Assembly: GCA_947177165.1 (NCBI GenBank)
Contig: CAMWTP010000009.1
Coordinates: forward strand, 32,761 to 96,760
Origin: an uncultured Lachnospiraceae bacterium
GTDB lineage: Bacteria > Bacillota > Clostridia > Lachnospirales > Lachnospiraceae
Length of the DNA: 64,000 nucleotides
Reading direction: 5' to 3'
Made by a program: the position numbers and the translations under genes. Below, one piece after another: positions 22,156-61,179 of the stretch. The first letter of the stretch is position 1, and the number at the start of each line of letters is the position of its first letter. Below the pieces are notes generated by a model. It was not told the DNA's origin and searched no databases. It saw only the letters and a list, made by a program, of their open reading frames with translations.

Positions 22156-22201
22156 AATGTAAGTATATAGAAAATATTTTCTTGAAAGAATGGAATTAAT
22201 A

Positions 22202-23320: not shown

Positions 23321-24290
23321 TCTAATATCAATTATTGTACCTGTATATAATACAGAGAATTATCTTAGAGAATGTATTCAAAGTGTTATAAGTCAATCAT
23401 ATAAAGAATGGGAATTAATTTTAGTTGATGATGGTTCGACGGATACCAGTGGAGAGATATGTGATGAGTATATAGATGCAAGAATTCATGTTATACATCA
23501 GAAGAATGGAGGGCAATCTAAAGCTAGAAATACTGCATTAGAGGTATGCCAAGGGAAATATTATGTTTTTTTAGATTCGGATGATAAATTGTATTATCGC
23601 GCACTTGAGATTTTATATATGGGAGTGAAAAAGAGTGGTGCAGGAATTAGTTGTGCTGGTATTCAGATATTTGGAAATGGAAAACAAAGAAAAGTACATA
23701 TGTTTTCTAAAGGTTATATCATGACAGCGAAAGAGGCCTGTGAAAAAATGTTTTTACAGGAGGAATTAGATAGTAATACATTTGCCAAGATGTATGATGC
23801 TTCTTTGTGGGATAATATCAGATTTCCTGAAGGAACAATATTTGAAGATGTTCCAATTATGTATAAAATAATTCTAAATAGTGGGACAGTTATGTATTGT
23901 AATGAATGTGTATATGAACAGCGTAGCCGTGTGGGAAGTACAACGAGTTCAGAATTTTCTGAGAATAGATTAGTATACACTGAATATACGAGCGATGTAT
24001 ATAGAGATATTGTAAAAATATATCCAGATCTGGAAAGAGCAGCAAAAGTATATTATCTATATTCTGTAGTAGACAATTTTATACATTTGTCATGCAGTAG
24101 AAATGTAAATAAGTATAAAACCTATTGGAAAGAATTAAGAAGAGAAATTGTTAGTAATTGGAGATTGATGGTGTCATATTCATTGTTTAAAGACAGAATT
24201 ACGAGAGTAATTTGTTGTTGTCTGGGTTTAGGCAGAATTGCATCAAAGATCACTAAATTGTTAATTAGAGAAAAGAAAAATTCTTTGTGA
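23313..24290 (+). CDS. GT2 family glycosyltransferase
   Basis: 325 residues. Classic GT-A start ISIIVPVYNTENYLRECIQSV, nucleotide site VDDGSTDTS, and DXD-type FLDSDDKL near residue 90; the acceptor side contains GTIFEDVPIMYKI. It is paralogous to the following gene. There is no membrane segment, so it is probably peripheral and acts on a lipid-linked glycan. Confidence 0.9.
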   Translation: MSDLISIIVPVYNTENYLRECIQSVISQSYKEWELILVDDGSTDTSGEICDEYIDARIHVIHQKNGGQSKARNTALEVCQGKYYVFLDSDDKLYYRALEILYMGVKKSGAGISCAGIQIFGNGKQRKVHMFSKGYIMTAKEACEKMFLQEELDSNTFAKMYDASLWDNIRFPEGTIFEDVPIMYKIILNSGTVMYCNECVYEQRSRVGSTTSSEFSENRLVYTEYTSDVYRDIVKIYPDLERAAKVYYLYSVVDNFIHLSCSRNVNKYKTYWKELRREIVSNWRLMVSYSLFKDRITRVICCCLGLGRIASKITKLLIREKKNSL

Positions 24291-24307
24291 CATCGAAGGA
24301 GAGAATA

Positions 24308-25273
24308 ATGGAAAATGGCTTGGTGTCCATAATTGTACCTGTATATAATACCGCTGAGTATATAGGTGAATGCATAAGAAGTGTGTTGAGGCAGACGTAT
24401 GCTAATTGGGAATTAATATTAGTAAATGATGGTTCTACTGACGGAAGCCAAACCATTTGTGAGCAGTATCAGGTTAATGATAATCGAATAAAATTAATTC
24501 ATCAGGAAAATAGCGGACAATCAAAGGCGAGAAATGAGGCACTCAAATTGTGCAATGGAGATTTTTATGTTTTTTTGGATTCAGATGACAGATTGACATC
24601 TGATGCATTGGCAGTTTTACATAAAGCAATTATTGAGAACAATGCAGATATTTCGTGCGGAGTGATAACAAAATTTGGTAGAAATAAAATAAAAAATATT
24701 TATGTAACAGATAAGAACTATATTTTGGAACCAAAAGAAGCTTGCAGGAATATGTTTGTACAAAAAGGATTAGATAGTAATACGTTTGCAAAAATGTATA
24801 GGGCATATTTATGGAAAAACATGATTTTTCCAGAAGGAACTATCTTTGAAGATGTACCAATTATGTACAAAATTATTTTACAAAGTAACAAGATTGCTTT
24901 TTGTCAAGAATGTGTATATGAGCAGCGTTCAAGAGACGGAAGTACGACTAGGATAGACTATTCTGACAAAAGAAAAGTATATGTAGATTATTCTTTCAAT
25001 GTTTATGAAGATATAAAACAAAGATTGCCAGAGTTGAGTGAGGAAGCGTTTGTATACTATTTGACGGCAGTGATTGATAATTATATTTCTATTTCATGTA
25101 GCAATAATGTAAAAGAATATAGACCATACAGACAGAAATTATATTGCATTATACGGACAAACAGGAAAGTTATAAAGGAATATGCATGTCTAAGCAGAAT
25201 GTTGATTCGAATAGGTATCTGTAGAGTGGGTGTAGGAAGATTGTTTTATCAACTATATCAAAAAGTAAAATGA
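24308..25273 (+). CDS. GT2 family glycosyltransferase, paralogue of the preceding gene
   Basis: About 321 residues: VSIIVPVYNTAEYIGECIRSV, VNDGSTDGS, FLDSDDRL and GTIFEDVPIMYKI match its neighbour nearly segment for segment. The start is the ATG of MENGLV, preceded by GGAGAG; the track's GTG overlaps the previous stop. Another tandem duplication in the cluster. Confidence 0.9.
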   Translation: MENGLVSIIVPVYNTAEYIGECIRSVLRQTYANWELILVNDGSTDGSQTICEQYQVNDNRIKLIHQENSGQSKARNEALKLCNGDFYVFLDSDDRLTSDALAVLHKAIIENNADISCGVITKFGRNKIKNIYVTDKNYILEPKEACRNMFVQKGLDSNTFAKMYRAYLWKNMIFPEGTIFEDVPIMYKIILQSNKIAFCQECVYEQRSRDGSTTRIDYSDKRKVYVDYSFNVYEDIKQRLPELSEEAFVYYLTAVIDNYISISCSNNVKEYRPYRQKLYCIIRTNRKVIKEYACLSRMLIRIGICRVGVGRLFYQLYQKVK

Positions 25274-25277
25274 TAAA

Positions 25278-26723
25278 ATGGAAGAAAAGAAGAAATTTAT
25301 AAAAGATATAATTTCAGTGATGATTGCTAACATTATTTCTTTATTAGGTAGCATAGCAAGTGGATTTTTGCTTCCTAAAATATTTAATATAGAAGAGTAT
25401 GGATATTATAAAATTTTTACATTGTATTTATCATATGCGGGGGTATTGCATTTTGGCTTTTTGGATGGAATACTGTTAAAAATAAGTGGAAAGAAATATG
25501 ATGATTTGGATAAGCAAAAATTTAAAAAAATCACTTGGTTTTATGTGATGTTTCAATTCATTGTTTGTTTATGTGCGTCATTTATGTTATTAATGGTGGT
25601 AAGCCAATATCATTATATTATCTTTTTTTTGGGACTATGCTTTTTTTCTACTAATTTGATAACTTATTTTCAATTCATATCACAAGCAACAATGCGTTTT
25701 AATGAGTTTTCAATAGTAAAAATTGTGACATCATTGCTTACATTTTTTTCAATATGCTTTTTATATGGTATTAATATTTTCTATGGCAGTGAGATAAAGA
25801 GTAAATTTTATATTCTAATCTTTACAAGTATCAATTGGTCTATTTTAATATACTATCTATATAAATATAGGACCATTGTATTTGGTAAAATAACTTGTGA
25901 TAATTCTGTAATAAAAGATATAATCAATTTTTTTAAAAATGGGTTTGTACTTACAATATCATATCAAATTTTACAGATAATTTTGAATTTGGATAGACAA
26001 TTTGTATCAGTGGCATTTTCAATCTCAGAATATGCCGTGTATTCCTTTGCGTATTCACTGATTTCAATGGTTACAACAGTAATCAGTGCTATATCGTTAG
26101 TATTGTTTCCGACATTAAAGCAGGTAAACAGGGAGACCGCAATTAAAATTTTACCTAAAAGTCTGTTAAGTGTTGAAGTGTTTGTATTAGCATGTTTAGG
26201 TGGTTATTTTCCATTAGCTAAAATAATTGAAATTTTTTTACCGGAATATATGGCATCATTGGAATATTTAATTATTTTATTCCCAGGTTTGGTAATATCT
26301 TCATGTATCACTATTGTTATCTTTACATATTACAAGTTATTTGATTATAATATTCATTTTTTTACAATGAGTTGTATTACGTTAGCCATATCCTTTCTTT
26401 TAAATATGTGTGCATGGAAATTATATGAAAGTACCTGTGCAATATCTTTTGCATCCATAATTTCAATGCTTTTCTGGTATATTACTACAGTCGTCAGTTT
26501 AGGACATAAAGTTCGGATTAAATGGAGAGTGAATTTCATATATGTAGTAATGGTAGGATGTACATTTTATCTAATTACTTATAGTGCAAAGGATCTAATA
26601 GCAGGTTTTGTAATGTATGAATTGTCTTTTATTTTTCTATCTGTGTTATTTCATTATAGTGAAATAAATAAGTTTATAAACATATTAAAGAAAAAGAGGA
26701 ATATTAGAAATGCGAAAAGATAG
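25278..26723 (+). CDS. Wzx-like polysaccharide flippase
   Basis: 481 residues with about 12-14 predicted helices. The N-terminus (IISVMIANIISLLGSIASGFLLPKIFNIEEYGYYKIF style) is typical of the PST/Wzx branch of the MOP exporters, which flip undecaprenyl-linked repeat units across the membrane. It starts five bases after the GT2 stop and overlaps the next gene by 14 bases. Very AT-rich. Confidence 0.86.
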   Translation: MEEKKKFIKDIISVMIANIISLLGSIASGFLLPKIFNIEEYGYYKIFTLYLSYAGVLHFGFLDGILLKISGKKYDDLDKQKFKKITWFYVMFQFIVCLCASFMLLMVVSQYHYIIFFLGLCFFSTNLITYFQFISQATMRFNEFSIVKIVTSLLTFFSICFLYGINIFYGSEIKSKFYILIFTSINWSILIYYLYKYRTIVFGKITCDNSVIKDIINFFKNGFVLTISYQILQIILNLDRQFVSVAFSISEYAVYSFAYSLISMVTTVISAISLVLFPTLKQVNRETAIKILPKSLLSVEVFVLACLGGYFPLAKIIEIFLPEYMASLEYLIILFPGLVISSCITIVIFTYYKLFDYNIHFFTMSCITLAISFLLNMCAWKLYESTCAISFASIISMLFWYITTVVSLGHKVRIKWRVNFIYVVMVGCTFYLITYSAKDLIAGFVMYELSFIFLSVLFHYSEINKFINILKKKRNIRNAKR

Positions 26724-28476
26724 GTTGAATACAAGATCTATATTGCGCAATTGCATTTATAACATAATATTACTGATTATAGTGATCAGCCAATTAAGAT
26801 ACGCGACGGGACCTGTAATAATGCCAGATGAAGTTGGATATTGGGCAGCTGGAGCAACAATTGCAGGTCTTAATTGGTCTGGTGTAATGTATGTGTCCCC
26901 ATATTATGGATATGGATATGGATTTATTCTAAGTGTTTTATTTAAAGTTTTTGATGACCCATTGATAATGTTTAAGGGAGCAATTGTTATCAATGCACTG
27001 TTTTTGGTAATTACTTACTGGTTGGCTTATTGCATTATTAAAATAATAGCTTTTGATTTAAATGATAGATTAAAAAGTCTGATTAGTTTTAGTGTGACAG
27101 TATATTCTTTTAATATTTATTATTCTCAGAATACTGAGGCAGAGATTTTACAAGTAGTGTTATATCTTTTGATATGTTTATTAGTAATACAATGCAGTTT
27201 TTATAACAAAAATTTTGAATGGAAAATGATTCTCTTATCGCTGACTTCAGGATATTTGTTGGCATGTCATTTAAGAAATATTGGAGTATTATTTGTGTTG
27301 TGCGTTTCGGTGGTTATATTATTTCTGACAAAAAAAATATCCATAAAGTCATTTGTGGGGTTTGTGGTTAGCATGATTGTATGTATTTTCATGTTTTTAA
27401 AGGTAAAGACATATATAAATATAAATTTATATGCAGTAACAAATTATACAAGTGAAGAAGCGGTTAAAATACAAGGGGCATTAGGTATTTTTTCCTTAGA
27501 AGGAGTGAAAAGTTTTTTTACTAATGTGTGCGGAAGATTATTTTATATTGGATGTGCTACATTTCTAATTGGATATAGAGGAATTTGGTTTATAATTTAT
27601 GAGCTTATTAAGGATATAGTAGACAGTATAAAAAGAAGAAAATTAGATGTGGATGGTCAAAGTATCTTTCGGTTTTTCGTCCTATTTTCTCTTGTTTCAG
27701 AAATTGCAATCGGATCGTTAAGTTTTTTAGGGAATCAAAGCAGAATAGACGGTTTTTTGTATGGAAGGTATAGTGAACATGTATTGATGCCTTTGTTAAT
27801 TTATGGGGTTATTAGTGTGGGGAAGTCTGCTCAATGTATTAAAAATCAACTCATTTGTACAGTTATATTACTTTTACAATCAATATTTATGAATCATATA
27901 TATGTCATAAATAATGCAACCGAATCTGGTACACATTCGATTGCTGGTATATTAGGGTTTGGGGTAAGTAATAATTTAAATGCTGATACAATTCAATTTA
28001 TTTATTCGTTTGGTATTGCGATATCTAGTGTATTGGTAGCGTGCGTTATGTATACTTTGTCGCGTAGGAAGGATATTCGTATGCAATTTGCAGGCATATT
28101 TTTTGTGGCATCATGTTGGATTATATGTTCATTAACCGCATTACATAATTATTTTTTTGATTTTGCGGATTATAACAGAGAATTATATTCATTTGCGAAA
28201 GAAGTGTCAAGTCAAACGGAATCTCCGATATATTATATCACCGATAAAGAGAGTGAAGCTTTGATGCATACTTCATCTACTTGGTTAATGTATCGTATAC
28301 AATATTTTTTGCCTGATACAGACATTAGGGTAATTGATATTGGTGAGTTTTCAGACCAAGACCTGATCATGACATATAAATACTCATTAGAAAATGAATG
28401 GATTTTAGAAAGCTCAAAATATAGTGCAATAATTGAAGGCCAAAGGTTAATATTGTATCAATATAATAGGGAATGA
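26710..28476 (+). CDS. Polytopic membrane protein, GT-C-like, paralogue of the gene at 13197
   Basis: 588 residues with about a dozen helices and an extracytoplasmic C-terminal region. The segment IMPDEVGYWAAGATIAG, followed by YYGYGYGFIL, matches the same region of the 13197 protein (LPDEFGYW, YYSYGYSVIL), and GFLYGRYSEHVLMPLLI matches the other's YGRYHEYVFPVLML. A glycosyltransferase or polymerase role is inferred from topology and neighbours. It is the last intact gene of the AT-rich island. Confidence 0.74.
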   Translation: MRKDRLNTRSILRNCIYNIILLIIVISQLRYATGPVIMPDEVGYWAAGATIAGLNWSGVMYVSPYYGYGYGFILSVLFKVFDDPLIMFKGAIVINALFLVITYWLAYCIIKIIAFDLNDRLKSLISFSVTVYSFNIYYSQNTEAEILQVVLYLLICLLVIQCSFYNKNFEWKMILLSLTSGYLLACHLRNIGVLFVLCVSVVILFLTKKISIKSFVGFVVSMIVCIFMFLKVKTYININLYAVTNYTSEEAVKIQGALGIFSLEGVKSFFTNVCGRLFYIGCATFLIGYRGIWFIIYELIKDIVDSIKRRKLDVDGQSIFRFFVLFSLVSEIAIGSLSFLGNQSRIDGFLYGRYSEHVLMPLLIYGVISVGKSAQCIKNQLICTVILLLQSIFMNHIYVINNATESGTHSIAGILGFGVSNNLNADTIQFIYSFGIAISSVLVACVMYTLSRRKDIRMQFAGIFFVASCWIICSLTALHNYFFDFADYNRELYSFAKEVSSQTESPIYYITDKESEALMHTSSTWLMYRIQYFLPDTDIRVIDIGEFSDQDLIMTYKYSLENEWILESSKYSAIIEGQRLILYQYNRE

Positions 28477-28940
28477 TAGAACTAGATGAGGATTTTGCAG
28501 AACGTTTGCAGGCTGTGGATACTAAGAAGGGGGCAGAACTTGCAGACAGACTTCAACAGGCTCTCCCTGCAATTGCATTGAGCAATCATAATAGTCTAAA
28601 TACGGCTTTTCTAAATGATGTGGATGGTAGTATGTGTTTTGCACAACAGGTAAATGGATATGGTAATGCAGGAGATGTGCTTTTAGCGATATCTACGTCA
28701 GGTAATTCCACGAATATTCTATATGCTGCCATTACGGCAAAGGCAAAGGGAATGGAGGTAGTTGGTTTAACAGGTAGAGGCGGAGGAACACTAAAGAATT
28801 TGACAGATGCAATAATCTCTGTGGATGCAACAGAAACATATAAAATTCAGGAATTACATTTGCCGATCTATCATTGTTTGTGTTTAATGTTAGAAGATTA
28901 CTTTTTTAGGGAGAGATTCAAGAGTGGAGTTAAATGTTGA
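28473..28940 (+). pseudogene. 5'-truncated SIS-domain sugar isomerase (GmhA-like)
   Basis: 155 residues matching the back part of phosphoheptose isomerases: STSGNSTNILYAAITAKAKGM, GLTGRGGG and KIQELHLPIYHCLCLMLED. The front, with the conserved GNGGSAAD phosphosugar-binding segment, is missing; about 60-70 residues are lost. Base composition changes abruptly at its start, exactly where the AT-rich cluster ends, so this looks like a recombination junction. An ATG happens to overlap the upstream stop, so a short protein might still be made, but it is unlikely to be an active isomerase. Confidence 0.75.
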
Positions 28941-28970
28941 CCTCTCAGCTTGAATGAAAGAAGGGGGATT

Positions 28971-29099
28971 ATGAGATACATTCTTATAAAGCTTATTTTA
29001 CTTATGCCGCTATTTATAATGATTATCATATCAGCATTGTATTCTCTTTTTGCCTGGATTTTGCGGAAGCAATTACAGGATAATTGGGACTGGCTATGA
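28971..29099 (+). CDS. Small single-pass membrane protein
   Basis: 42 residues, below the ORF track cutoff: MRYILIKLILLMPLFIMII, continuing hydrophobic to about residue 30, then a polar end (RKQLQDNWDWL). AGGGGG lies six bases before the ATG. It lies between the gmhA fragment and a terminator. Function unknown. Confidence 0.5.
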   Translation: MRYILIKLILLMPLFIMIIISALYSLFAWILRKQLQDNWDWL

Positions 29100-49716: not shown

Positions 49717-50241
49717 ATGATATTGCTAGTTGTTGATACTCAAAATTTAATTATGAATAATGACTTATATGAATTTCCGACTTTTGTATATCGTATTAAA
49801 ACACTAATCAAAGAGGCGCGCAATAATAATATAGAAGTTATTTATGTTAGACATGATGATGGTGTTGGACAGAAATTAACGAAAGGCGCAGCAGGCTATG
49901 AAATATACGAAGAATTTCAGCCAATGCCAAATGAGCGTGTTTTTGATAAAAATGTAAACAGTGCTTTTCGAGATACAGGGTTGTTGGAGTACCTGCATGA
50001 AAAAGACGAAGATACAATTATTATTGTAGGGCTGCAAACAGATTACTGCATAGATGCAACAGTGAAATGTGGTTTTGAACATGGGCTTAAAATGATTGTT
50101 CCAGCAAATACAAACAGTACGTTTGATAATGCGTATATGACAGCGGAAAAGTCTTATAGATATTATAATGAGTTCATGTGGAATGGAAGATACGCTGAAT
50201 GTATTTCATTTGAAAAAACGCTTGAATTGATGAATAGATAA
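49717..50241 (+). CDS. Isochorismatase-like cysteine hydrolase
   Basis: 174 residues. The catalytic triad is readable: Asp in LLVVDTQN, Lys in FDKNVNSAF and Cys in LQTDYCIDAT. Family members hydrolyse amides such as nicotinamide or ureidoacrylate; the substrate is unknown. The ATG after GGAAGGG is chosen over the track start. Lower GC than the trp genes. The mobile element begins about 85 bases past its stop. Confidence 0.88.
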   Translation: MILLVVDTQNLIMNNDLYEFPTFVYRIKTLIKEARNNNIEVIYVRHDDGVGQKLTKGAAGYEIYEEFQPMPNERVFDKNVNSAFRDTGLLEYLHEKDEDTIIIVGLQTDYCIDATVKCGFEHGLKMIVPANTNSTFDNAYMTAEKSYRYYNEFMWNGRYAECISFEKTLELMNR

Positions 50242-50324
50242 ATTCAAATTTATCTACTAACTGCCTTAACTTTCCTTTATTTTCAAGGCTTTGCGGTATG
50301 CCCAGTCTCAAAATATGTATCCTT

Positions 50325-50344
50325 TTCCCTTGTTTTTGCCCTTA
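50325..50344 (+). repeat. Candidate left attachment site
   Basis: TTCCCTTGTTTTTGCCCTTA lies 40 bases beyond the integrase stop; it matches the repeat at 62390 at 19 of 20 positions. It also forms part of a hairpin with CAAGGGAAAG. Confidence 0.5.
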
Positions 50345-50384
50345 CTAGCAAGTTACAAGGGAAAGTTTTTGTTATTCAGTTTTT

Positions 50385-51683
50385 TTAACTCATTCCCACA
50401 ACCTTATCCAATAGCTTTGCGGAATCTCGCTTAGCCTCCCTTGTGGCGTGTGCATAGACATTCATGGTTGTGCTTACGTCCGAATGCCCTAAAAGCTCCT
50501 GCACGTCTTTTGGTTGCGCCCCATTTGATAACAGGTTCGTCGTGTAAGTATGCCTTAATGTGTGGAAGTGGAAACCCTCTAACTCCGGTACTTTCCTTGC
50601 CGCTGTCCGGCAGGCTGTTTCTACGGTGGCAGGAAGTTCAAGACAGCCATCTTCCCTCAGACATACAAAGGAGACTTCCGTATAATCCTCCGGCGCATCT
50701 TCTGTCATTGGCAGGTTGTAATACTCATAATGCACCCTGTTCTTCTCTGTGACTTCCCTGTAGAAATTCCTGTGGTAGAGTCCGCCATACTGCATACGGT
50801 TTTTAAGCTGTTGTTTTCTTGCTTCCTTCAAAATGTCAGCGAGGGCGTTTCCAAAATCAACTGTACGCACTTTTTTCCTCTTGGTCGAGCCGATTTCGTG
50901 CTTATGGGTAGCGCCGTTGTAACGGACACTCCTGCGGACTGTCAGATATTGTTCCTCAAGGTTGATGTCCTGCCAAGTCAGACCTGTCACTTCCCCAAGC
51001 CTAAGTCCTGTAAAATAGGCTATCTGTACAGGCAGGATTGCGTCTTTGCTGCGTTTTCCAAGCTGTGAAATCAGTTTTTGATACTGTTCATACGAAATAG
51101 GCTTGACCTTGCCTGTTTCAGTGTCCGTTTCCTCTGCAAACAAGTCCATATCGTCCTTTTTGTGCCTCATTACCACATACTGCATGGGATTGAATGTGAT
51201 GTACTGTTTCGGGAACACCGCAAAGCGGAAGGACTGCTGCAATACTGCGGAATAAGACCGTATATAGTCAATGGAATATCCCTTTGAAACAAAGTCCTCA
51301 ACCGTTCCGCCGAATGAGAGCAAATCCATGAACTGCTGTAAATGCCCCGAAGTAACCGTTTTTAGCTTTCGTCTGCTTACAGGGTGCTGTTTAATGCGGT
51401 TGATTGCCTGTAAATAAGTACCGACAGTGCCATTGCTCAATATGCCTGTCTTTAATTCTTCCTCCGCCCATGTGTCAAGCAACTGTCCGAGGGTGATATT
51501 GTCCGCCTTTGCAATGAATTTCTTGCTTTCATAGTCCTCCATTGCCTGCCTTAACAGCTTTTCCGTTTCGCTTTTGCTTTCTGTTCCTGCACATTCTTTC
51601 TGTACCAAGTTACCGCTTGCATCCTCCACATAGAAGCGGTAGTACCATTTTTTACCTTTCTGCCGTACTGATCCTTTTGCCAT
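50385..51683 (-). CDS. int: Tyrosine-type site-specific integrase
   Basis: About 432 residues. An N-terminal arm-binding domain (GSVRQKGKKWYYRFYVEDASG) and a SAM-like core-binding domain precede the catalytic domain: Arg in TGLRLGEVTGLTW, HTLRH, the His in LLGHSDVSTT and the nucleophile Tyr in MNVYAH. This is the Tn916-Int class. The ATG after GGAGAAACG is chosen; the track extends 15 codons upstream. Its 3' end lies next to the candidate att site, the usual position. Confidence 0.94.
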   Translation of the reverse strand: MAKGSVRQKGKKWYYRFYVEDASGNLVQKECAGTESKSETEKLLRQAMEDYESKKFIAKADNITLGQLLDTWAEEELKTGILSNGTVGTYLQAINRIKQHPVSRRKLKTVTSGHLQQFMDLLSFGGTVEDFVSKGYSIDYIRSYSAVLQQSFRFAVFPKQYITFNPMQYVVMRHKKDDMDLFAEETDTETGKVKPISYEQYQKLISQLGKRSKDAILPVQIAYFTGLRLGEVTGLTWQDINLEEQYLTVRRSVRYNGATHKHEIGSTKRKKVRTVDFGNALADILKEARKQQLKNRMQYGGLYHRNFYREVTEKNRVHYEYYNLPMTEDAPEDYTEVSFVCLREDGCLELPATVETACRTAARKVPELEGFHFHTLRHTYTTNLLSNGAQPKDVQELLGHSDVSTTMNVYAHATREAKRDSAKLLDKVVGMS

Positions 51684-51800
51684 AATCGTTTCTCCTTTCA
51701 ATGAACGCATTTCTGCGTATGTAATCATTGAACAGATATGGCAGTCGAAACTGATGGAATGCTTTCTGAAAATAAGGATAGCATAAAATCTGCTGTCCCG

Positions 51801-52421
51801 CTATACCGAATCGGAATCTTCCCCTGATAAAAGAACGGAAAGCCTTGCAGCGGCGGCGTCAGGATTTTTGGAGTAGAGCCTCACTATGTCGCTCATATCA
51901 TTAAGGGCATTTACGGTGTGGGTAATCTCCCGAAGGAACATGATTTCATTATATTCCCTGTCCGATTCAAATCCCATTGTCTTTGCAAGCTGTGCGCTTT
52001 CCCCGTTGCCCTTAAACTTCCTGCACGCAAGGCGGAACGAATCCACAAACAGCTCATATTCCTGCAACATCAGCAGAAACAGGTCTTTTGAAAAGTCTGA
52101 TTCGGAAGTTTCCATGTCATAAGGCAGCTTTGAAAGAATGGAGGACATGGCATCACGGATTAACATTTCCTTTTTATCCGTAATGTCAGATTCATATTCC
52201 TCCGTTTCGCCTTTTAGCCACTCTACGGAAACATGGAGTGCGTCTGCCAGACCGTCAAGGACAAGTTTCTTGGTATTGTCAATCGTTCCTGCCTCATACC
52301 TCTGAATGGTGGATGCGGTAACACCCATTTTTTCAGCAACATAAGGCTGGTTGACGCCTAATTCCAGTCTCCGATGTTTTGCCCTGACGCCGATTACCTT
52401 GCGCAGCTCTTTGTCTTTCAT
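51801..52421 (-). CDS. XRE-family repressor of the mobile element
   Basis: 206 residues. The N-terminal HTH is ELGVNQPYVAEKMGVTASTIQRYEAGTIDN; the C-terminal part is helical without a peptidase motif, so it is not a LexA-type cleavable repressor. GGAGGAAAACC precedes the ATG. It is divergent from the excisionase gene, with palindromes between, and so probably controls excision. Confidence 0.88.
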   Translation of the reverse strand: MKDKELRKVIGVRAKHRRLELGVNQPYVAEKMGVTASTIQRYEAGTIDNTKKLVLDGLADALHVSVEWLKGETEEYESDITDKKEMLIRDAMSSILSKLPYDMETSESDFSKDLFLLMLQEYELFVDSFRLACRKFKGNGESAQLAKTMGFESDREYNEIMFLREITHTVNALNDMSDIVRLYSKNPDAAAARLSVLLSGEDSDSV

Positions 52422-52441
52422 GTTGGTTTTCCTCCTTTATC

Positions 52442-52577
52442 GGTATGGTTAGAGTATACCATACCAAAACCATTATTGCAATATGCAAGTTAAAGATAAT
52501 TTACAAAATCACATAACGCTTGACAAGGAAATATAAATGATATATATAGTAAGCATACTAAAAATTGCATAATGCAA
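52442..52577. promoter_or_regulatory. Operators between XRE and excisionase genes
   Basis: Two copies of TTGCA-N3-TGCAA occur at 52476-52488 and 52565-52577, and GGTATGGT/ACCATACC forms another inverted repeat at 52442-52465. They flank the excisionase promoter. Confidence 0.6.
52520..52548 (+). promoter_or_regulatory. Excisionase promoter
   Basis: TTGACA and TATATA are separated by 17 bases, between the two TTGCA-N3-TGCAA palindromes. Confidence 0.65.
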
Positions 52578-52596
52578 TTCAAGAGGAGGAGAATGA

Positions 52597-52827
52597 ATGA
52601 CAGAAATGAAGATTGCCCTTTCTATTGAGGAAGCGGCAGACTACACAGGTATCGGTCGGAACACACTAAGAAAGCTGGTGGAATGGGATAAACTCCCTGT
52701 ATTGAAAGTGGGAAGAAAGGTGCTTATCAAAAAGGACATTCTGGAACTGTTTATGACAGTCAATGAAGGAAGGAATTTGCGGGACAAGGGAAATGTCAAG
52801 GCTGTCACAAGAAAGGCAGTTGTATAA
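52597..52827 (+). CDS. xis: Excisionase-type helix-turn-helix protein
   Basis: 76 residues: ALSIEEAADYTGIGRNTLRKLVEWDKLPVLKVGRKVLIKKDILELF is the winged-helix/HTH_17 pattern of Tn916-type excisionases. It would bind the element ends and direct the integrase to excision. GAGGAGGAG precedes the ATG. Confidence 0.85.
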   Translation: MTEMKIALSIEEAADYTGIGRNTLRKLVEWDKLPVLKVGRKVLIKKDILELFMTVNEGRNLRDKGNVKAVTRKAVV

Positions 52828-52848
52828 AGGGCAGACAAGCAGTTACAG

Positions 52849-53000
52849 TGAACTTAAAAAATACAATCACTTTTGAAAAGTGAACTCAAAAAATGCAGTC
52901 ACTTTTGAAGAATGAACTTAAAAAGTAAGTTCACTGAAAAGACTGTGGGATATGTTCCGCAAAAAAATGAACTTAAAAAGTGCAATCACTTTGAACAAAG
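52849..53000 (+). repeat. Iteron-like direct repeats upstream of the relaxase gene
   Basis: The unit TGAACTTAAAAAATACAATCACTTTTGAAAAG recurs at 52849, 52881 and 52913 with an exact 32-base period, and again at 52968. Copies diverge mainly in their second half. Confidence 0.8.
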
Positions 53001-53181
53001 TCAGTTGACCGCCGGAAACAGCAGAAATGTAATTCAGCATAACCAGTACATTTGGGGAAGATAAGGATAACAAAGACGGGCAGAAATAAAAGGATTGCCG
53101 GAAAAACAGGCATAAAACAGCCGGAAAATTGTTTCCAACATGCTGAAAGCGCATTTCGCTGGATACCCTCGGAGAGCTCCC

Positions 53182-53265
53182 GCAGTATTGGCGAAGGCAA
53201 TGGAACATTGACTTTGACAATACTGCTAGGGGGTTATCATCTATGGCAGAGCCAAGATGATAACC
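53182..53265 (+). other. Candidate origin of transfer (oriT) region
   Basis: GCAGTATTG pairs with CAATACTGC over a 27-base gap, followed by a long hairpin GGTTATCATCT/AGATGATAACC with an inner TGGC/GCCA. It lies directly upstream of the relaxase gene, where MobV oriTs are found. The nick site cannot be assigned. Confidence 0.45.
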
Positions 53266-53299
53266 GCACTGCTCCAACATGAAATCAGGGAGGAAAGAC

Positions 53300-54580
53300 A
53301 TGGGAGAAATCTCTTTCAGCAACCACATCAGCAACAAGAAAAGCGCCATCAACAGCAAGGCAAAACTTGCAGGGGTTGCAAAACACAATCTGAGGAAGTA
53401 TCATTCGCAGGATTACAGCAGGGATAACATCACACTTCTTTATGGGACAACGAATCTCATGCAGGACGTGAAAGATGTTTATCGTAAAGAGTTTGTCGCT
53501 GCCCTGCATGAATACAATACGAAGCAGACAAGACCGGAAAGACGGATTGACGATTATTTTGAACATGTATCCAAAACAGAACAGGATATAGCAGTGGAAA
53601 TCATTATACAATGCGGGGATAAGGGCTTTTGGGAACAGAACATGGATGGCAGGATATTTATGAAGCCGGTTTATAAGCAGCTTCTTTTAAAACTGCAGGA
53701 ATACCTGCCGGATTTTAAGATTGCCAATGCGGTGATCCATTTTGATGAGGCAAGCCCGCACATGCACGTTGTAGGGATTCCGATAGGGAGAGGATTTAAG
53801 CGGGGGCTGTCAACAAAAGTGTCAAAACGTTCCGTATTCACTCCCCAAGTCCTGTCAGAAATCTTACAGGATAAAATGCGGGCAGATGCAAACCATTATA
53901 TGAAAGCCATATTCCAGCAGGAAGTAAAGGAAAAGAAAAAGGGAAAAAACCATGACCTGACGGTTGCGGAATACAAAGTTGCAAAGGAAGAAGAGAAAAT
54001 TGAAAAATTATCAACAGATAAAATAGGATTGGAGGCTGACCTTCTCGTCCTGAACCATAAAAAATCCACTACACAAAAGAAACTGGAGGAACTGGACGGG
54101 GAGATAGAAAGTTCCAATATCTTTCTTAAAGCAATCCGACAGATAAAACAGTTTATACAGGCGTATCTTCCATTTGCACCATTGATTGAGGAATTTGCGA
54201 ACCATGTGGAACGTGGGGCGAATATAGAGGCAGGAAACAGCTTTCACGGCTTGCTGACCGCACTTGGGGAACTGCTGAATTCGTTTAAGGAGATCATAAA
54301 AGACGGGTTATGCTGGTTCCCACGCCTTATGCGGTGGCAGACCTCAAAAGGCGAAGTTTCTCCTGTGTTTGAAGATAACAGGAATGAAGGATATTACTAC
54401 CGGCTAAAATCCTATATGGATATCCATACAAGGCAGGAATACCCAAAAGAACTGATACAGCAGGAAATCAAGCCGGAAAACCGTACAGGCACAATAGAGC
54501 AGTTAGCGCAGAATGTGGAGGCTGTCGAAAAGCAGGTACAGCTTATGGGTGTAAAAATGAATAGGAATCAAATGTATTAG
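53300..54580 (+). CDS. mob: MobV/Pre-like relaxase (plasmid mobilization/recombination protein)
   Basis: About 426 residues. The HUH-type metal motif is HFDEASPHMHVVGIPI near residue 151, matching HxDExxPHxH of MobV. NITLLYGT near residue 41 and the N-terminal SFSNHI segment also fit. The middle is a coiled coil (AKEEEKIEKLS to LEELDGEIES). It nicks oriT and leads the strand into a recipient using another element's conjugation machinery. The ATG after GGAGG is used. Confidence 0.87.
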   Translation: MGEISFSNHISNKKSAINSKAKLAGVAKHNLRKYHSQDYSRDNITLLYGTTNLMQDVKDVYRKEFVAALHEYNTKQTRPERRIDDYFEHVSKTEQDIAVEIIIQCGDKGFWEQNMDGRIFMKPVYKQLLLKLQEYLPDFKIANAVIHFDEASPHMHVVGIPIGRGFKRGLSTKVSKRSVFTPQVLSEILQDKMRADANHYMKAIFQQEVKEKKKGKNHDLTVAEYKVAKEEEKIEKLSTDKIGLEADLLVLNHKKSTTQKKLEELDGEIESSNIFLKAIRQIKQFIQAYLPFAPLIEEFANHVERGANIEAGNSFHGLLTALGELLNSFKEIIKDGLCWFPRLMRWQTSKGEVSPVFEDNRNEGYYYRLKSYMDIHTRQEYPKELIQQEIKPENRTGTIEQLAQNVEAVEKQVQLMGVKMNRNQMY

Positions 54581-54630
54581 ACCTAGCCAATTATAAAGCA
54601 GCAGACTAAAACTAAAATCTTTTAATGCTC

Positions 54631-54665
54631 AAAAGGACATTTCCATTCTTTGAAAATGTCCTTTT
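54631..54665. terminator. Terminator between relaxase and helicase genes
   Basis: AAAAGGACATTT pairs with AAATGTCCTTTT; it works for both convergent genes. Confidence 0.7.
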
Positions 54666-54737
54666 GCATACACGAGGATGCGAGAGTGTGCATATCTCTG
54701 AAATAGAGTTTTGGGGCGTGATAAAATGAAGCTGTTA

Positions 54738-56741
54738 TTATGTAAGATTTTGTTTTGCAAACTCTTTTAGCTTATCAATGAGTTTTTGAGCATCTTTGGA
54801 TAATGCACCATTTTCATAAGTTTTAATTAGTTGGTTTGGAAAATAGTTCTCATATATATCCATTTTTTTAGACCATGAAGTATCGTAATCCTCTGTGCCA
54901 AGCATACCAACATGTTCCCAGAACATTTTCTTGCCACTTGGGAGATAAATAGTAAAATCTGGATTTATAGTTTTTCCATTTCCATATTCCAATAATTCCT
55001 CGTATTTATATTTAATACCAGATGCATGAAGTAAATCACAAATGATAACCTCGGATTTGCTTCGTACGTTATTACCATCTACGGTTGTATAGATACGATT
55101 CAGTTGATATTTATCCATTCCTAAATAACGTGCAATTTCCTGATGTAAATACTGGGAGTTAGGGTTATCTTCAAGTAATTTTACGAAGTAGTTTAATAAT
55201 TCATGCTTATATTCTTTCTTTTCGGTAATATCATCAAGCATTATTTTCATCTGCTCGTCTGATATGTCAGTTGATGTGACCTCTATTACTAACCATCTTT
55301 CTAAGGGTTTTTTGAGTTTTGCTTTTCCTCTAATAATAGAATCGTACACTATATCAGATAATTCTTCAGCAGTTATGTTATTTGCTTTCATTATACGAAC
55401 AAAGCCTTTGGATCGTGTGCTATCATAGAGTTCTTGTAATTTAGTATCTTGAATATCATATAATTCTGTAAGACCGGAAAAACCTTTACAGATTATTTTA
55501 ATTAGACCAGCTTTCATATAGTATGGCAAACATTCTTGAATGTCTTCATTGTCAAAATAAGCAATCACTCTGTATCCATCACGTTTTCCTATATTCTTGT
55601 AGACTTCCTGTAGCTTTGCCTCTGTTGGAAATGACCTGTCTATAAAATGTGTTCTCTTTACATCTATATTCTTATTGGAATATAGTAAATAGGCATTAGC
55701 ACCATATCCGTCACGAGCAGCTCGACCAACCTCTTGATAATATTGCTCTGCTGATTCTGGTATCATAAAATGAATCACATTTCTTATATCTTTTATATCA
55801 ATTCCCATACCAAATGCGTTGGTTGCAAACACAAGGTTGATGTTCCCATTACGGTATTGCTCTATAATATCCATTCGTTCATTTGAGGACATTTCTCCAT
55901 GAAACCATGCTGCCTTATAACCTTTAGAAATTGCCTCCTCACATAAGCCCTCTACAGCACGTTCCCCTTTTTTTCGATACACATATACCAATGTTTTTTC
56001 GTGACGATGGTTTTTAATTATTTCCCAAAATTTATCTTCTTTTTCATCTTCTTTGTTGAATTTAAGAGTATGGAGTTGAATTTCGTTTCGCATTAAAACA
56101 GTCTGTTTGAGGATATTGTACTTTGAAATATGAAATTCTTCGCAAATATCTTTCAATTCTTTTGGATTAAGAGTAGCAGTTAGGGCTAAAATTCTGCACC
56201 ACTTGTCTGCACCGAAAATTCTATCCAGAAAATTTGGTATGCGTTTGTAAAATGGTCTAAAGCTCATGCCCCACTGACTGACACAGTGAACCTCGTCAAT
56301 TACTAAGAGTTTTATATCCTCTTTTCTTTGTTTTAGAGAGTATTCAAAAAAGCCATCTGTAGCAAATTTTTCGGGACTGGCAAAGATAAATTTGGGCGTA
56401 CTTTTCTTATTGGCAAAACCGGATAATACAGTCATTTGTTTCTTGACATTTATACCACCATGAATAACCAGTGTTTCATACCCCTGATCATTTAGCTTTT
56501 CAGCCTGTTCAGCAATCAATGCAGTCAATGGGGAAACAACCATTGTTATTCCTCCAACCTCCATAGCAGACATCCAGTAAATTATGGATTTACCACCGCC
56601 AGTAGGCATAATACATAAAGTATTATCTTTTACTACAAGGTTGTTTATAACATCCTTTTGAAATTCTTTCAGTTGAAAATCAAAAGAAGGAAAGTATTTT
56701 TCAAAATCTTTATCCAAATTAAGCAAATCCCATACCTCCAT
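54738..56741 (-). CDS. RecQ-like DNA helicase with apparent C-terminal PD-(D/E)XK nuclease domain
   Basis: 667 residues. Helicase motifs: Walker A MPTGGGKS (45-52), DEVHCVSQWG near 150, and motif VI QEVGRAARDG. The usual RecQ zinc-binding Cys cluster and HRDC domain are absent. After a helical stretch (about 400-560) the end reads SKSEVIICDLLHASGI, NPDFTIYLPSG and FWEHVGML, an E...D...ExH pattern like PD-(D/E)XK folds. The start overlaps the upstream unknown gene by 23 bases. AT-rich cargo of the element. It is probably a defence or DNA-processing enzyme rather than housekeeping RecQ. Confidence 0.85.
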   Translation of the reverse strand: MEVWDLLNLDKDFEKYFPSFDFQLKEFQKDVINNLVVKDNTLCIMPTGGGKSIIYWMSAMEVGGITMVVSPLTALIAEQAEKLNDQGYETLVIHGGINVKKQMTVLSGFANKKSTPKFIFASPEKFATDGFFEYSLKQRKEDIKLLVIDEVHCVSQWGMSFRPFYKRIPNFLDRIFGADKWCRILALTATLNPKELKDICEEFHISKYNILKQTVLMRNEIQLHTLKFNKEDEKEDKFWEIIKNHRHEKTLVYVYRKKGERAVEGLCEEAISKGYKAAWFHGEMSSNERMDIIEQYRNGNINLVFATNAFGMGIDIKDIRNVIHFMIPESAEQYYQEVGRAARDGYGANAYLLYSNKNIDVKRTHFIDRSFPTEAKLQEVYKNIGKRDGYRVIAYFDNEDIQECLPYYMKAGLIKIICKGFSGLTELYDIQDTKLQELYDSTRSKGFVRIMKANNITAEELSDIVYDSIIRGKAKLKKPLERWLVIEVTSTDISDEQMKIMLDDITEKKEYKHELLNYFVKLLEDNPNSQYLHQEIARYLGMDKYQLNRIYTTVDGNNVRSKSEVIICDLLHASGIKYKYEELLEYGNGKTINPDFTIYLPSGKKMFWEHVGMLGTEDYDTSWSKKMDIYENYFPNQLIKTYENGALSKDAQKLIDKLKEFAKQNLT

Positions 56742-57705
56742 CTCTTATCTGCGATTTCATAACAGAAATATCAGCATCATGTTCAAGGGCAACATATTCA
56801 AGGAAAGCATCTACTATGATATAGCGATAATCCGGATCTATGTAAGCATTGAGTTCGGTAGCTTTATCACGAAGAAGTTTGTAGATTTCAAAAGCATAAT
56901 ATACAAATAATGTGTACGGATAAAAGTAATTCTGTTGGACTACTCCCTTATCTACATCTATCATTAAAAACTCAGAGTCCATAGTACAGTTATATTTCGA
57001 TTTGCCTGACAAATACCACAATGCCCATAATGCACTTCTGCTACGATTTGGGAAAAGTCCTGGGTATACTTTATACAACATATGCGTTTTTATACCACCG
57101 CCGATTACTCCATAGGCTGTGTAATCATCGGTATCCATTAGATTCATATTTAAATCTTCATAGGTTTCGTGGTTCTCATATTCTTCTTCATCATAATTTT
57201 CGGCATATTCATCAGCAAACTCACATAGATTTGTGACCACCTCCAAGAGCCAATCAGCATCGGCATGGCTGAAATTTCCTCTGTATTTATCAAGTTCTTT
57301 TGCTTTTCTGTTTGCAAGAGTTTTTCGGATAATGGGGCATTCATTTCTAAGGATTTTAGACTTAAAATGATCGGCATCATCAACTAAATCTTCCAATAGT
57401 TCTATATCCATTATCTTTAAATAATCCTCTTGATCCTTTTCGTATTTAACTAAGGATTCTTTTATTATCGACTTATAATTAATGGAGAGCTTTTTGCTGG
57501 ATATAGGTTTGGTACATCTCTCGTCTATACCAAATTTCTTTTGAAGTTTTGTAAAATCTTCTTCTGTTAATCCATTTCCGGCATTTGTTTCGAGGAAACG
57601 TTGAAAATATCCCTCAAAATTCTTCTTGATTTCTCCTAAAACTTTTTTGATATGTTCATAATCGTAACAAGGTTCTTCTACATCAATGCCTGCACCCACA
57701 TACAT
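56719..57705 (-). CDS. Unknown protein, partner of the RecQ-like helicase
   Basis: About 328 residues, acidic, no signal peptide or clear membrane segment. An N-terminal helical part (DYEHIKKVLGEIKKNFEGYFQRFLE) is followed by an acidic stretch (ENYDEEEYENHETYEDLN) and a conserved-looking core (GVIGGGIKTHMLYKVYPGLF, RSRSALWALWYLSGK). I recognise no catalytic motif. The ATG after GGAGG is used. The stop lies 23 bases inside the helicase gene, so the two are translated together and are likely one complex. Confidence 0.75.
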   Translation of the reverse strand: MYVGAGIDVEEPCYDYEHIKKVLGEIKKNFEGYFQRFLETNAGNGLTEEDFTKLQKKFGIDERCTKPISSKKLSINYKSIIKESLVKYEKDQEDYLKIMDIELLEDLVDDADHFKSKILRNECPIIRKTLANRKAKELDKYRGNFSHADADWLLEVVTNLCEFADEYAENYDEEEYENHETYEDLNMNLMDTDDYTAYGVIGGGIKTHMLYKVYPGLFPNRSRSALWALWYLSGKSKYNCTMDSEFLMIDVDKGVVQQNYFYPYTLFVYYAFEIYKLLRDKATELNAYIDPDYRYIIVDAFLEYVALEHDADISVMKSQIRDGGMGFA

Positions 57706-57739
57706 GGTTTGTACCTCCAATTCTTTTGTTGCTATATTG

Positions 57740-57990
57740 TTTTGTCATGGCGTGAATCTACTTCGTAAATCAATATGTAAGTTATAAAACATACATGTTG
57801 ATTATTCCACGCCAAGAGACCCAGATTCCACTGTGGATAGGCTCCACCAGATTTCCTAGTGGTGCCATCAGTTCGCAGAACAGATCCACCCTTACTTTTG
57901 CTTAATTACCCCCCCCCACTCAAATGGGGATTTTGTGTCAATGATGCGCGGCAGCGCAGGCGATAGTCCTTGTCATTGACACAGAAGCTC
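57740..57990. ncRNA. Highly structured non-coding stretch upstream of the helicase pair
   Basis: No ORF, but several inverted repeats: TGGCGTG/CACGCCA with ATCAATATGT/ACATGTTGAT inside (about 57746-57813), GGCTCCACC/GGTGGTGCC-type pairs near 57850-57875, a C9 tract facing GGGG, and TGTGTCAATGA/TCATTGACACA (57934-57983). It could be a leader, a guide-like RNA or an element end. Strand unknown. Confidence 0.35.
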
Positions 57991-58176
57991 CACTTTGAGC
58001 ATTCTGGGGCATGGCAAAAGGCAAGGGGATCCTACCAGTGTGCAAGTGGATCTCAAACAAATATTGGTAGACTCAGATACATGGAATATTTACATATTGT
58101 AATTATAAAGTTTCTATGTTGTAAAAGCAATACAAAATACCGTAAATATTATACAGAACTATTCAAGTGTTTCCCT

Positions 58177-58817
58177 TAAAAATCATCAATAACACGGATG
58201 AGGTTCTGTTTTGCATACCAGCTGTCGCAGAGAATGATGACATTCTTCTTGCTGTAGAGTGCAGGCATCACCTGTCTGAGCATGAAAACGGCAAGGTCAA
58301 GCTTCGTGGCGTCTTTTTTCCACATGTGATATCCCAGGGGGACGGCAGTGTAAGAGCTCTTCTACCCTTTCCAGCTGTGGACGCAGAGCATGAGGCTGGC
58401 AAAGTAGTGGTCGTTAAGGTAATTGGAGCCGTTGTGTGCGGCATGATCGAACAGTTTTGAAACATCTTCAAACTTTGTACCGAATTTTTTGTCCATGGTA
58501 TCGTCAGCACAGAGGAACACCGGCTGAGTGTCAAGTCTCTGTGGGACAATCTTCAGAGCCAGAGCCGCAGTTACTCCCATAAATCACGTGTAATCAGCCT
58601 TTGCATAGGAGCAGGTATAATAGAAAGCCTTGAGCGACTTTTCTGTAATCTTCGATAGGAAATGCCTGAAGAGGAAGCGGATTGAATCAGCGGCTTCCAG
58701 TGCTAGCATGGAAAACACCAAAAGGAAAAGAGCTTTTGCCGTTGGAGCTGAGAACGCGGAAAAATATATGTAAAGTTTGTCAATCACGGTATTTCTGTTG
58801 TATAATAAATTTGACGT
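58177..58817 (-). pseudogene. Decayed IS transposase (DDE type, IS4/IS701-like)
   Basis: Pieces in order on the minus strand: VIDKLYIYFSAFSAPTAKALFLLVFSMLALEAADSIRF, a stop, then VFLCADDTMDKKFGTKFEDVSKLFDHAAHNG-type sequence (probable first catalytic Asp in CADD), then, after frameshifts, KKNVIILCDSWYAKQNLIRVI. The original start codon appears as ACG, whereas the IS end copy at 62.3 kb keeps ATGTCAAATTTATTA. The C-terminal part is missing. Confidence 0.75.
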
Positions 58818-59182: not shown

Positions 59183-59377
59183 ATGAAAGGTGCTGTTGCT
59201 ACAAGACATGTCCTAAAAATCTTAGGACAAAATGGCTGGAGAAGAATAAGGGTGAATGGTAGTCATGCTATTTATTCTAAAGATGGAATTTCAGTTCCTA
59301 TCAAGGTAACAAAAAAAGAAATCCCCATTGGTACATTATCCAGCATAATGAAAATAACCGGGCTTAGTTTTGACTAA
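59183..59377 (+). CDS. hicA: HicA-type mRNA interferase toxin
   Basis: 64 residues. ILGQNGWRRIRVNGSHAIYSKDG carries the catalytic His (H28) in the GSH motif, and IPIGTLSSIMKITGLS is the usual end. HicA cleaves mRNA under stress. GGAGG precedes the ATG. The antitoxin gene follows after 30 bases. Confidence 0.92.
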   Translation: MKGAVATRHVLKILGQNGWRRIRVNGSHAIYSKDGISVPIKVTKKEIPIGTLSSIMKITGLSFD

Positions 59378-59407
59378 GCTCGGTTATTTAAAAGAAAGGA
59401 TATAGAA

Positions 59408-59803
59408 ATGGAAAAATATATTTATCCAGCAGTGTTTTCTTATGAGGAAGTAATATATATTCGTTTTCCTGATTTTCCAGAATGTGTATCAGATGCAGAA
59501 TGTGAAACAGAAGCATATTCAAATGCAAAAGAGATATTGGAGTTATGGTTATATGATATGGAATGTAGGGGAATTAGTTTTCCAAGGAAAAGTGTGTTAA
59601 AAGATATTCCTCTATCTGATAATGAGATATTGGTTTTAATTGAGGTTTCCATGCCAGTAGTTAGAGATAAGGTAAAAAATATCTATGTTAAAAAAACTTT
59701 AACTATACCCAAATGGCTGGATGAATTAGGAAAGGCAGAAAATGTTAATTTTTCGCTTTTGTTACAAAATGCGTTAAAAGAATATTTAGGAGAAAATAAA
59801 TGA
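59408..59803 (+). CDS. hicB: HicB-type antitoxin
   Basis: 131 residues. The N-terminal RNase-H-like HicB fold is IYPAVFSYEEVIYIRFPDFPECVSDAE, and the C-terminal DNA-binding part is KTLTIPKWLDELGKAENVNFSLLLQNALKEYL (ribbon-helix-helix type). It neutralises HicA and should bind the promoter palindrome. Its stop overlaps the next gene as ATGA. Confidence 0.9.
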   Translation: MEKYIYPAVFSYEEVIYIRFPDFPECVSDAECETEAYSNAKEILELWLYDMECRGISFPRKSVLKDIPLSDNEILVLIEVSMPVVRDKVKNIYVKKTLTIPKWLDELGKAENVNFSLLLQNALKEYLGENK

Positions 59804-61179
59804 ATGTAAATGCATATATAAAATGCAATGTATGTGGATGTGTTACTAGGGTAAAAGTGCAGGCCGGATGGTTGAGAGAGCATCCTATTGCGATATATTG
59901 TGGAGAGTGCAATATTTTGATTGAGGGCACAGTGTTTCAAGATCCTGATGAAGGACAGATTGGATTACAGTTTAAAAATGCTACTAGAGTATCATATGGC
60001 GAAGAGGCTGACTATTTTGTAGAGTCATCGGGTGAGTTTATAACTTTCAAAATGGTTTCTGAAGATGATCCAAGAGCAATGCTGTCATCTGTTATGACGC
60101 CGTTTATCCGAAATGCACATGATGATAAAAATGAGATTTACAGACATAATTTTATGGCATTGCTTAAAATGAAAGAGGATGAATGGAGAACTATTCGGAG
60201 GGTATTTGAATTATGGAGTAATCATAGTAGTGAACTGTATTTAAAGCAAGAATTGAAAAGAAACTTAATAAAACTGCAAGAAGGTGACCTCCTTTGGCAA
60301 GAGAAGGGATTGCATACTTTGTTTAATAGGGTTGGAAAATTCATGAAATATGACGAGGGAAAATTAGATGAAATTATTACAAGTATGAAGAAACTGCCAT
60401 ATAAGGAAGTGAAAGAGTTATTGAAATTTTTAAATTCAAAAGAATATCTGGTTAATTGTAAAAGAAGAATATATGAGATTACTAATCAATATATTGACAA
60501 GTTTCAATATATGATGCCGGCATATAAGGAGTTGCTAAAAGAGGTAGAGGTAGATTATAGTAATTTTGGAATTACAACAACATCATTTGAAATGCTTAAA
60601 GATTTTTACATTAGTTGTTATGAATTATTGGGAGATATGGTTCCGATTCTTAATGGGTTAAATAATATTTTACTACGGAAAAGATATAATGAAAGTACGG
60701 ACGCAAAAATAAAATACGAGGATCTTTTATATAAGCCGAATTCATTAAAAGTGAAAAAATATATTCCAGAGGAAGGATTTTCAAAATTAGTTTCAATAAA
60801 TTTTAATGAAAGGATGAGGAATGCCATTGGGCATTATGACTATAAAATAGAAGGAAAGAGTCAAAAAATTCTGTATACAAGAAATACAAATCATACAGAG
60901 CATGAAGAATATGAGGATGAAATCTATTTATTGGAGTTTACCATAGATTGTTTGAAATTATATCAGTCTGTAGTGTATATGGAAGAAATAATTTATTTAC
61001 TGGAAACGGCAGATTATAGCGGAAGTGGAGAAAAAATATCTTATTTAAAAAAGAAAATATATCCAAATGATCCATGTCCATGTGGGAGTGGAATGAAGTA
61101 CAAAAAATGTTGTGATAAATTGATTGATAAGTATTGCAATTATATAGAGGTAATGGGAGGTATAGACAATGCAATTTGA
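59800..61179 (+). CDS. SEC-C protein with N-terminal zinc finger and HEPN-like Rx4H motif
   Basis: 459 residues. The N-terminus has C9xxC12 and C34xxC37, a probable zinc ribbon. A long helical middle follows. R340-N-A-I-G-H345 matches the Rx4H active site of HEPN ribonucleases in a helical context (NERMRNAIGHYDYK). The end has a SEC-C zinc motif, PNDPCPCGSGMKYKKCC. It is translationally coupled to hicB and overlaps the next gene by 11 bases. HEPN assignment rests on the short motif and predicted helices only. A role as extra toxin or RNA-targeting effector is inference. Confidence 0.8.
   Translation: MNVNAYIKCNVCGCVTRVKVQAGWLREHPIAIYCGECNILIEGTVFQDPDEGQIGLQFKNATRVSYGEEADYFVESSGEFITFKMVSEDDPRAMLSSVMTPFIRNAHDDKNEIYRHNFMALLKMKEDEWRTIRRVFELWSNHSSELYLKQELKRNLIKLQEGDLLWQEKGLHTLFNRVGKFMKYDEGKLDEIITSMKKLPYKEVKELLKFLNSKEYLVNCKRRIYEITNQYIDKFQYMMPAYKELLKEVEVDYSNFGITTTSFEMLKDFYISCYELLGDMVPILNGLNNILLRKRYNESTDAKIKYEDLLYKPNSLKVKKYIPEEGFSKLVSINFNERMRNAIGHYDYKIEGKSQKILYTRNTNHTEHEEYEDEIYLLEFTIDCLKLYQSVVYMEEIIYLLETADYSGSGEKISYLKKKIYPNDPCPCGSGMKYKKCCDKLIDKYCNYIEVMGGIDNAI

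Follow-up and report, generated by a model that had tools for sequence, protein, structure and literature searches.

Bacterial immunity is increasingly seen to include a broad class of helicase-nuclease machines, and how they discriminate between phage and host DNA is a question for the whole field. Among the described two-gene units, PsyrTA/RqlHI combines a RecQ-family motor whose RecQ C-terminus is incomplete with a small partner, RqlI/PsyrA, which is a DprA-like Rossmann protein. Hachiman couples the nuclease HamA to the SF2 helicase HamB, and Gabija couples the OLD nuclease GajA to the UvrD helicase GajB. Within the RqlHI operon RqlI binds RqlH and restrains the genotoxicity of the latter (PMC4670107). 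In Druantia III, DruE is a helicase-nuclease that engages ssDNA-containing replication intermediates and DruH is the likely sensor (PMC13192584), their genes overlapping by 17 bp in M. smegmatis (PMC13316683). In addition, Hna is an autoinhibited ATP-dependent exonuclease for which the phage SSB serves as the trigger (PMC13381803).

The locus described here lies in a window of 64,000 nucleotides (the whole stretch that was analysed) from an uncultured Lachnospiraceae bacterium. Two genes on the minus strand encode an acidic all-helical partner of 328 aa (56719..57705), which comes first, and a RecQ-family SF2 helicase of 667 aa with a C-terminal PD-(D/E)XK-type nuclease domain (54738..56741). 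Their promoter and leader presumably lie in 57706..57805 (-), a stretch conserved with the closest relative. A sequence-only reading of this DNA had put the two overlapping genes forward as a candidate defence unit, and the proposal is now supported by the co-occurrence of both families and by their defence-gene context relative to controls. Both ORFs lie where that reading had placed them, and the overlap of 23 bases between the 3' end of the partner gene and the 5' end of the helicase gene (56719..56741 (-)) was confirmed; translational coupling through it is probable. We consider it fairly probable that the two genes form a two-component system against phage (anti-invader DNA), a defence role that we infer from the genomic context, which supports it well. 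We also lean slightly towards the broader view that the pair represents an undescribed multi-phylum defence family in which a RecQ-type helicase-nuclease is gated by a protein with a new all-helical fold, the nuclease being either fused or supplied in trans by a NERD/SF1-helicase protein.

The assignment of the motor was based on TIGR00614, the AF2 model and conserved residues. Known RecQ enzymes are 3'-5' motors. The NCBIfam model TIGR00614 (RecQ_fam) matched residues 23-370 of the helicase only, with 240.8 bits against a cut-off of 219.8, and the housekeeping RecQ equivalog TIGR01389 stayed below its cut-off (268.7 vs 640.2 bits). No Pfam match to RecQ_Zn, RQC or HRDC was detected in the helicase in searches up to E 1, in agreement with the initial description of a RecQ-type helicase lacking the zinc and HRDC regions. 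The AF2 model (pLDDT 88) matched the structures of RecQ, BLM, RECQL5 and RECQL4 with a best E of 3e-26. The RecQ core motifs 0 (Gln), I, II (DExH), the aromatic-rich loop (QW) and VI were all found, and Q28, K51, D149-E150-x-H152, Q156-W157, R340 and R343 were invariant in all 45 full-length copies.

The C-terminal domain (approximately residues 545-667, 54738..55112 (-)) carries RSKSE (E564), PDF (D595), WEHxG (E609) and W623xxK626. Its residues 544-658 matched the C-terminus of the PADLOC candidate PDC-S68 (E 8.5e-32), and in residues 562-642 the secondary structure read from the whole-protein AF2 model follows an alpha-beta-beta-beta-alpha-beta layout. Across copies the domain shows the pattern RSKSE...YE...PDFT...WEHxG...WxxK, and in the alignment E564, P594-D595, E609-H610 and K626 were invariant (45/45 full-length copies). 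The PD-(D/E)XK nuclease that had been suspected at this end of the protein was thus supported, with a variant signature. Classical PD-(D/E)XK members have E-x-K, whereas here L, I or V replaces the lysine after the second acidic residue (E-x-[LIV]). In other PD-(D/E)XK families the catalytic lysine can be supplied from the following helix, and by analogy the invariant K626, which lies in the next helix, may substitute for the missing one. Given this replacement of the ExK lysine, the nuclease activity of the helicase protein is likely yet unproven. The same domain terminates plasmid proteins annotated as AAA, RecD-like or UvrD helicases, which points to a portable nuclease module joined to different helicases. 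When the PDB was searched with the sequence of the nuclease domain, only chance matches came up, chiefly neuraminidases, and these were discarded.

The partner starts at an ATG with GGAGG just upstream, and a TTG start at 57720 is likewise open. The protein is acidic (pI 4.75; 61 D+E and 40 K+R), and its AF2 model (pLDDT 88.5, pTM 0.89) is essentially all helical. Its sequence gave no match in Pfam, NCBIfam, PADLOC or the PDB, and a fold search against the PDB and BFVD (viral) gave none at E ≤ 0.001. The acidic protein that the sequence-only reading was unable to place thus remains hard to place and belongs to no known housekeeping family. Since the partner is described by none of PADLOC 2023, NCBIfam 2026 and Pfam, annotation pipelines currently miss it. 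Its strongest conservation falls on residues 199-232 (GVIGGGIKTHMLYK..P..FPNRSR..WALWYL). Weak HhH-GPD matches in two of 49 partner members prompted a DNA-glycosylase/HhH reading of the GVIGGGIKTHMLYK stretch, which was rejected after hhalign against PF00730 (HhH-GPD) gave a probability of 0.3% and E 0.22. CATSPERB_head, Nod1, MG491 and other weak Pfam matches of the partner were sub-cut-off and inconsistent among members, and matches of one or two members to Cas12f, LmuB, GajA and Csn2 (E 4e-4 to 5e-3) were dismissed as coil-like noise. A solitary shorter ORF of 230 aa in locus L077 (1183-1875) matches partner residues 190-247. This protein and two other small ones (L059, 5552-6271; L060, 595-1305) carry an ATEILHKxxPxxYPxxxxxSxWAL-like motif, whose likeness to residues 199-232 was established by search for L077 and by eye for L059 and L060. 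This part of the partner may belong to a wider domain family that has yet to be described.

A search of 84,980 genomes with the partner alignment yielded 54 loci, distributed over Bacillota, Bacteroidota, Cyanobacteria, Myxococcota and a small number of further phyla, these further phyla being represented mostly by MAGs. In 53 of them the helicase gene was adjacent, downstream and on the same strand. The sole locus without an adjacent helicase, L008, has the 3' end of the partner replaced, followed by an integrase remnant; it was rejected as an example of a lone partner and is regarded as decayed. In 391 Clostridia genomes, the partner search and a separate helicase search (E ≤ 1e-70) retrieved the identical four genomes (about 1%). 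Almost without exception, a genome with one of the two families also has the other. Within the main class, nearly every relative has the two genes overlapping in one frame relation, mostly by 8-23 bases. The pairwise distances of partner and helicase were correlated over 45 loci with r = 0.97 (the best of 2000 permutations reached 0.38), a value that shows co-inheritance rather than physical contact, since the permutation keeps the shared phylogeny of the organisms. When a conserved third gene was sought in the main class, the flanking ORFs varied by locus, which implies that the module consists of two genes. In four of the 54 loci (L037, L050, L051 and L052) the partner is split by apparent frameshifts and the helicase is intact; unless these are sequencing errors rather than decay, they argue against the partner being strictly required. 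The pair is a conserved, co-inherited and horizontally moving operon.

In a diverged sub-class the nuclease domain is absent from the helicase. The helicases of L056, L057, L059 and L060 have about 540 residues, their partners are 21-28% identical, and each is adjoined by a gene of the NERD/SF1-helicase type encoding 560-570 residues. In L056 and L059 a Pfam match confirmed NERD, which is a PD-(D/E)XK-type nuclease domain, and L057 and L060 were assigned because they resemble these loci. L093 is a fifth diverged locus with the partner and helicase side by side. Whether in cis or in trans, a nuclease thus accompanies the pair, an argument that nuclease activity belongs to its function. Together with the invariant nuclease site and the orphan partner, this natural variant, which has its nuclease in a separate gene, allows simple mutants to tell the sensor role from the effector role. 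As a separate observation, NERD/SF1-helicase, protein-kinase-like and McrB/McrC-like genes lie downstream of the nuclease-less variant in L056 (10416-16750), in what is apparently a dense defence island.

The neighbourhood of the pair was assessed with PADLOC (E ≤ 1e-20) on 382 neighbour proteins, divided into three sets of 125-130. The three sets matched 224, 92 and 233 PADLOC families. As controls, 120 proteins were taken from 13 randomly chosen regions of related genomes, all Clostridia, and these matched 19 families. The counts are redundant (several models per protein) and do not amount to a formal enrichment statistic. The neighbours included specificity, methylase and restriction subunits of type I RM systems, type II methylases, IIG, BrxC, ZorD, PtuA, DpdE and DruM, so that BREX, Zorya, Septu and Dpd are all represented, as well as a DISARM-type methylase (DrmMII) and NERD/UvrD proteins. 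None of the 120 control proteins was a component of RM, BREX or Zorya, and mad3 was discounted as background (matched by four control proteins). Type I RM and MTase genes were the commonest neighbours, and no single neighbour was conserved. The enrichment of defence genes around the pair relative to the controls is strong, which answers the check for defence-island enrichment proposed in the sequence-only reading. Placement in defence islands equally suits RM-associated or plasmid-maintenance genes.

Compared with the described systems, the pair appears analogous to Hachiman, Gabija and Druantia III and a member of none. It resembles PsyrTA/RqlHI in being a two-gene operon of a small partner and a RecQ-family motor with an incomplete RecQ C-terminus, and the PADLOC PsyrT model matched the helicase (E 1e-74), aligning over residues 21-382 of 689, in the helicase part only. 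However, the C-terminus of RqlH/PsyrT is a phosphoribosyltransferase domain, whereas the helicase of the pair ends in a PD-(D/E)XK-type nuclease, and the partner is all-helical and matches neither DprA nor a Rossmann fold. With Hachiman the pair shares the two-gene logic of an SF2 helicase and a PD-(D/E)XK-type nuclease, but there the small partner is the nuclease, whereas here the RecQ-type motor itself carries the nuclease and its partner is a non-nuclease; HamA and HamB models were absent among the PADLOC matches listed for the pair, and the partner had no PADLOC matches. Gabija is likewise a two-gene nuclease-helicase defence unit, but it uses an SF1 helicase and a TOPRIM/OLD nuclease instead of an SF2 RecQ motor and a non-OLD partner. 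Druantia III offers the arrangement of a large sensor-like protein encoded upstream of a helicase-nuclease by overlapping genes, although DruE is a YprA-like DUF1998 helicase of 1667 aa and DruH has 1132 aa; no DUF1998, Druantia or DruH-like partner was found among the Pfam and PADLOC matches listed for the pair. DpdF of the Dpd 7-deazaguanine system was the top PADLOC match of the helicase core (E 1e-81), but the NCBIfam DpdF model scored 208.3 bits against a cut-off of 550 and the Dpd gene set is absent from the element in the window. In PDC-S68 (about 1200 aa) the C-terminal ~115 residues correspond to the nuclease domain of the pair, but PDC-S68 is a single-gene candidate and the pair matches these 115 residues only. 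Literature searches, which covered mostly open papers rather than subscription ones, found no description of the pair. The view that it fits no system that can be named was upheld against PsyrTA/RqlHI, Hachiman, Gabija, Druantia III, DpdF and PDC-S68. As a combination of known kinds of enzyme with one orphan protein, the pair is new and apparently unnamed.

Coupled translation would set a fixed ratio of the upstream all-helical protein and the helicase-nuclease, which would form one complex. The partner is probably a sensor or gate, the sensor role being a guess since no fold match is available, and it would keep the enzyme inactive and off host DNA. The complex could be released or loaded by ssDNA-containing replication or recombination intermediates of the phage, or by free ends. 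The RecQ motor would then translocate and unwind, and the tethered nuclease would cut the strands, so that phage DNA, and possibly also host DNA (abortive infection), would be destroyed. Druantia III (PMC13192584) and Hna (PMC13381803) are recent analogues of such an enzyme under the control of a sensor or trigger. In the diverged sub-class the role of the nuclease is probably supplied in trans by the adjacent NERD-nuclease/SF1-helicase protein. With about 1000 residues, an invariant nuclease site and an orphan partner of apparently new fold, the pair would be a compact version of such machines.

In the window, the pair is carried by a mobilizable element of about 7.9 kb (50247..58187), the ends of which are approximate and were placed using the junctions in L007 and empty-site homology. 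The order of genes is a tyrosine integrase (50385..51728 (-); Phage_integrase, E 1.9e-26), an XRE-type regulator (51801..52421 (-); HTH_3, E 1.6e-9), a protein like the excisionase of Tn916 (52597..52827 (+); HTH_17, E 1.4e-11, and Tn916-Xis, E 6.2e-8), a MobV/Mob_Pre relaxase-like protein (53279..54580 (+); Mob_Pre, E 3.1e-15) and then the pair. L007, the closest relative (97% identity over 54571-57805), keeps 50240-50286 joined directly to 54571-57805, together with 58091-58189. Because it retains only the element ends and the pair, the ends are fixed approximately; homology to empty sites in related genomes ends at 50245-50253. At 33.8%, the GC content of the pair is below that of the element backbone (43.6%) and of the chromosome (48%), which, along with the integrase, XRE, Xis-like and MobV genes, confirms the earlier description of the pair as AT-rich cargo. 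In L091 (6066-10420) and L103 (155-1471) the int-xre-xis-mob backbone, or only its mob end, recurs with a DNA identity of 90-92% but has other genes beside the relaxase, which indicates that the pair sits in an exchangeable cargo slot of a small mobilizable element of Lachnospiraceae. Elsewhere, the pair was found beside serine recombinases on a prophage-like contig (L005) and on a cyanobacterial conjugative plasmid (L006).

The main rival to a defence system, which overlaps the sensor/gate reading, is an RqlHI/PsyrTA-like toxin-antitoxin unit in which a RecQ-like nuclease genotoxin and an acidic antitoxin stabilise the mobile element, phage defence being secondary. Restraint of the genotoxicity of RqlH by RqlI within one operon (PMC4670107) provides a precedent, the partner is upstream, acidic and co-translated as an antitoxin might be, and the truncated partner of L008, lacking a helicase, looks like an antitoxin remnant. 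The toxicity of RqlH, however, resides in the phosphoribosyltransferase domain, and the PADLOC PsyrT model aligns over the helicase part only; moreover, a strict antitoxin would not allow the four loci with a frameshifted partner and an intact helicase, which weighs mildly against this reading unless they are sequencing errors. We regard this explanation as unlikely.

The homology to the RecQ family and the carriage on elements and a conjugative plasmid would also suit an accessory repair or recombination helicase-nuclease that aids the replication or recombination of mobile elements and has no part in defence. Such a role is at odds with the sporadic occurrence of the pair (4/391 Clostridia genomes) on unrelated carrier elements, with chromosomal copies lying among defence genes and with the L091 and L103 copies of the same element backbone that lack the pair, and we judge it improbable. 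Even less credible is an accessory to restriction-modification that depends on RM or BREX genes nearby: genes for type I RM and MTases are indeed the commonest neighbours, but no single one is conserved and the element in the window has no RM gene.

Several further features of the window were noted. Four direct repeats of about 25 nt (TGAACTTAAAAAnTnCAATCACTTT) lie at 52849-52992, between the xis-like and mob genes, with spacings of 32, 32 and 55, and are possibly arm sites of the integrase/excisionase or a part of oriT. Just past the right end of the element, the ORFs at 58268-58580 (-) are presumably like a fragment of an IS transposase (DDTMDKKFGTKFEDVSKLFDHAAHNGSNY). They are followed at 59183-59803 (+) by what resembles a HicA/HicB-like toxin-antitoxin pair, and then by a protein of 459 aa (59800-61179) with a C-terminal SEC-C motif detected by profile. 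Finally, the region 21000-29000 of the window has a GC content of 26-35%, compared with 48% around it, as well as a high GC skew, and is probably another acquired island.
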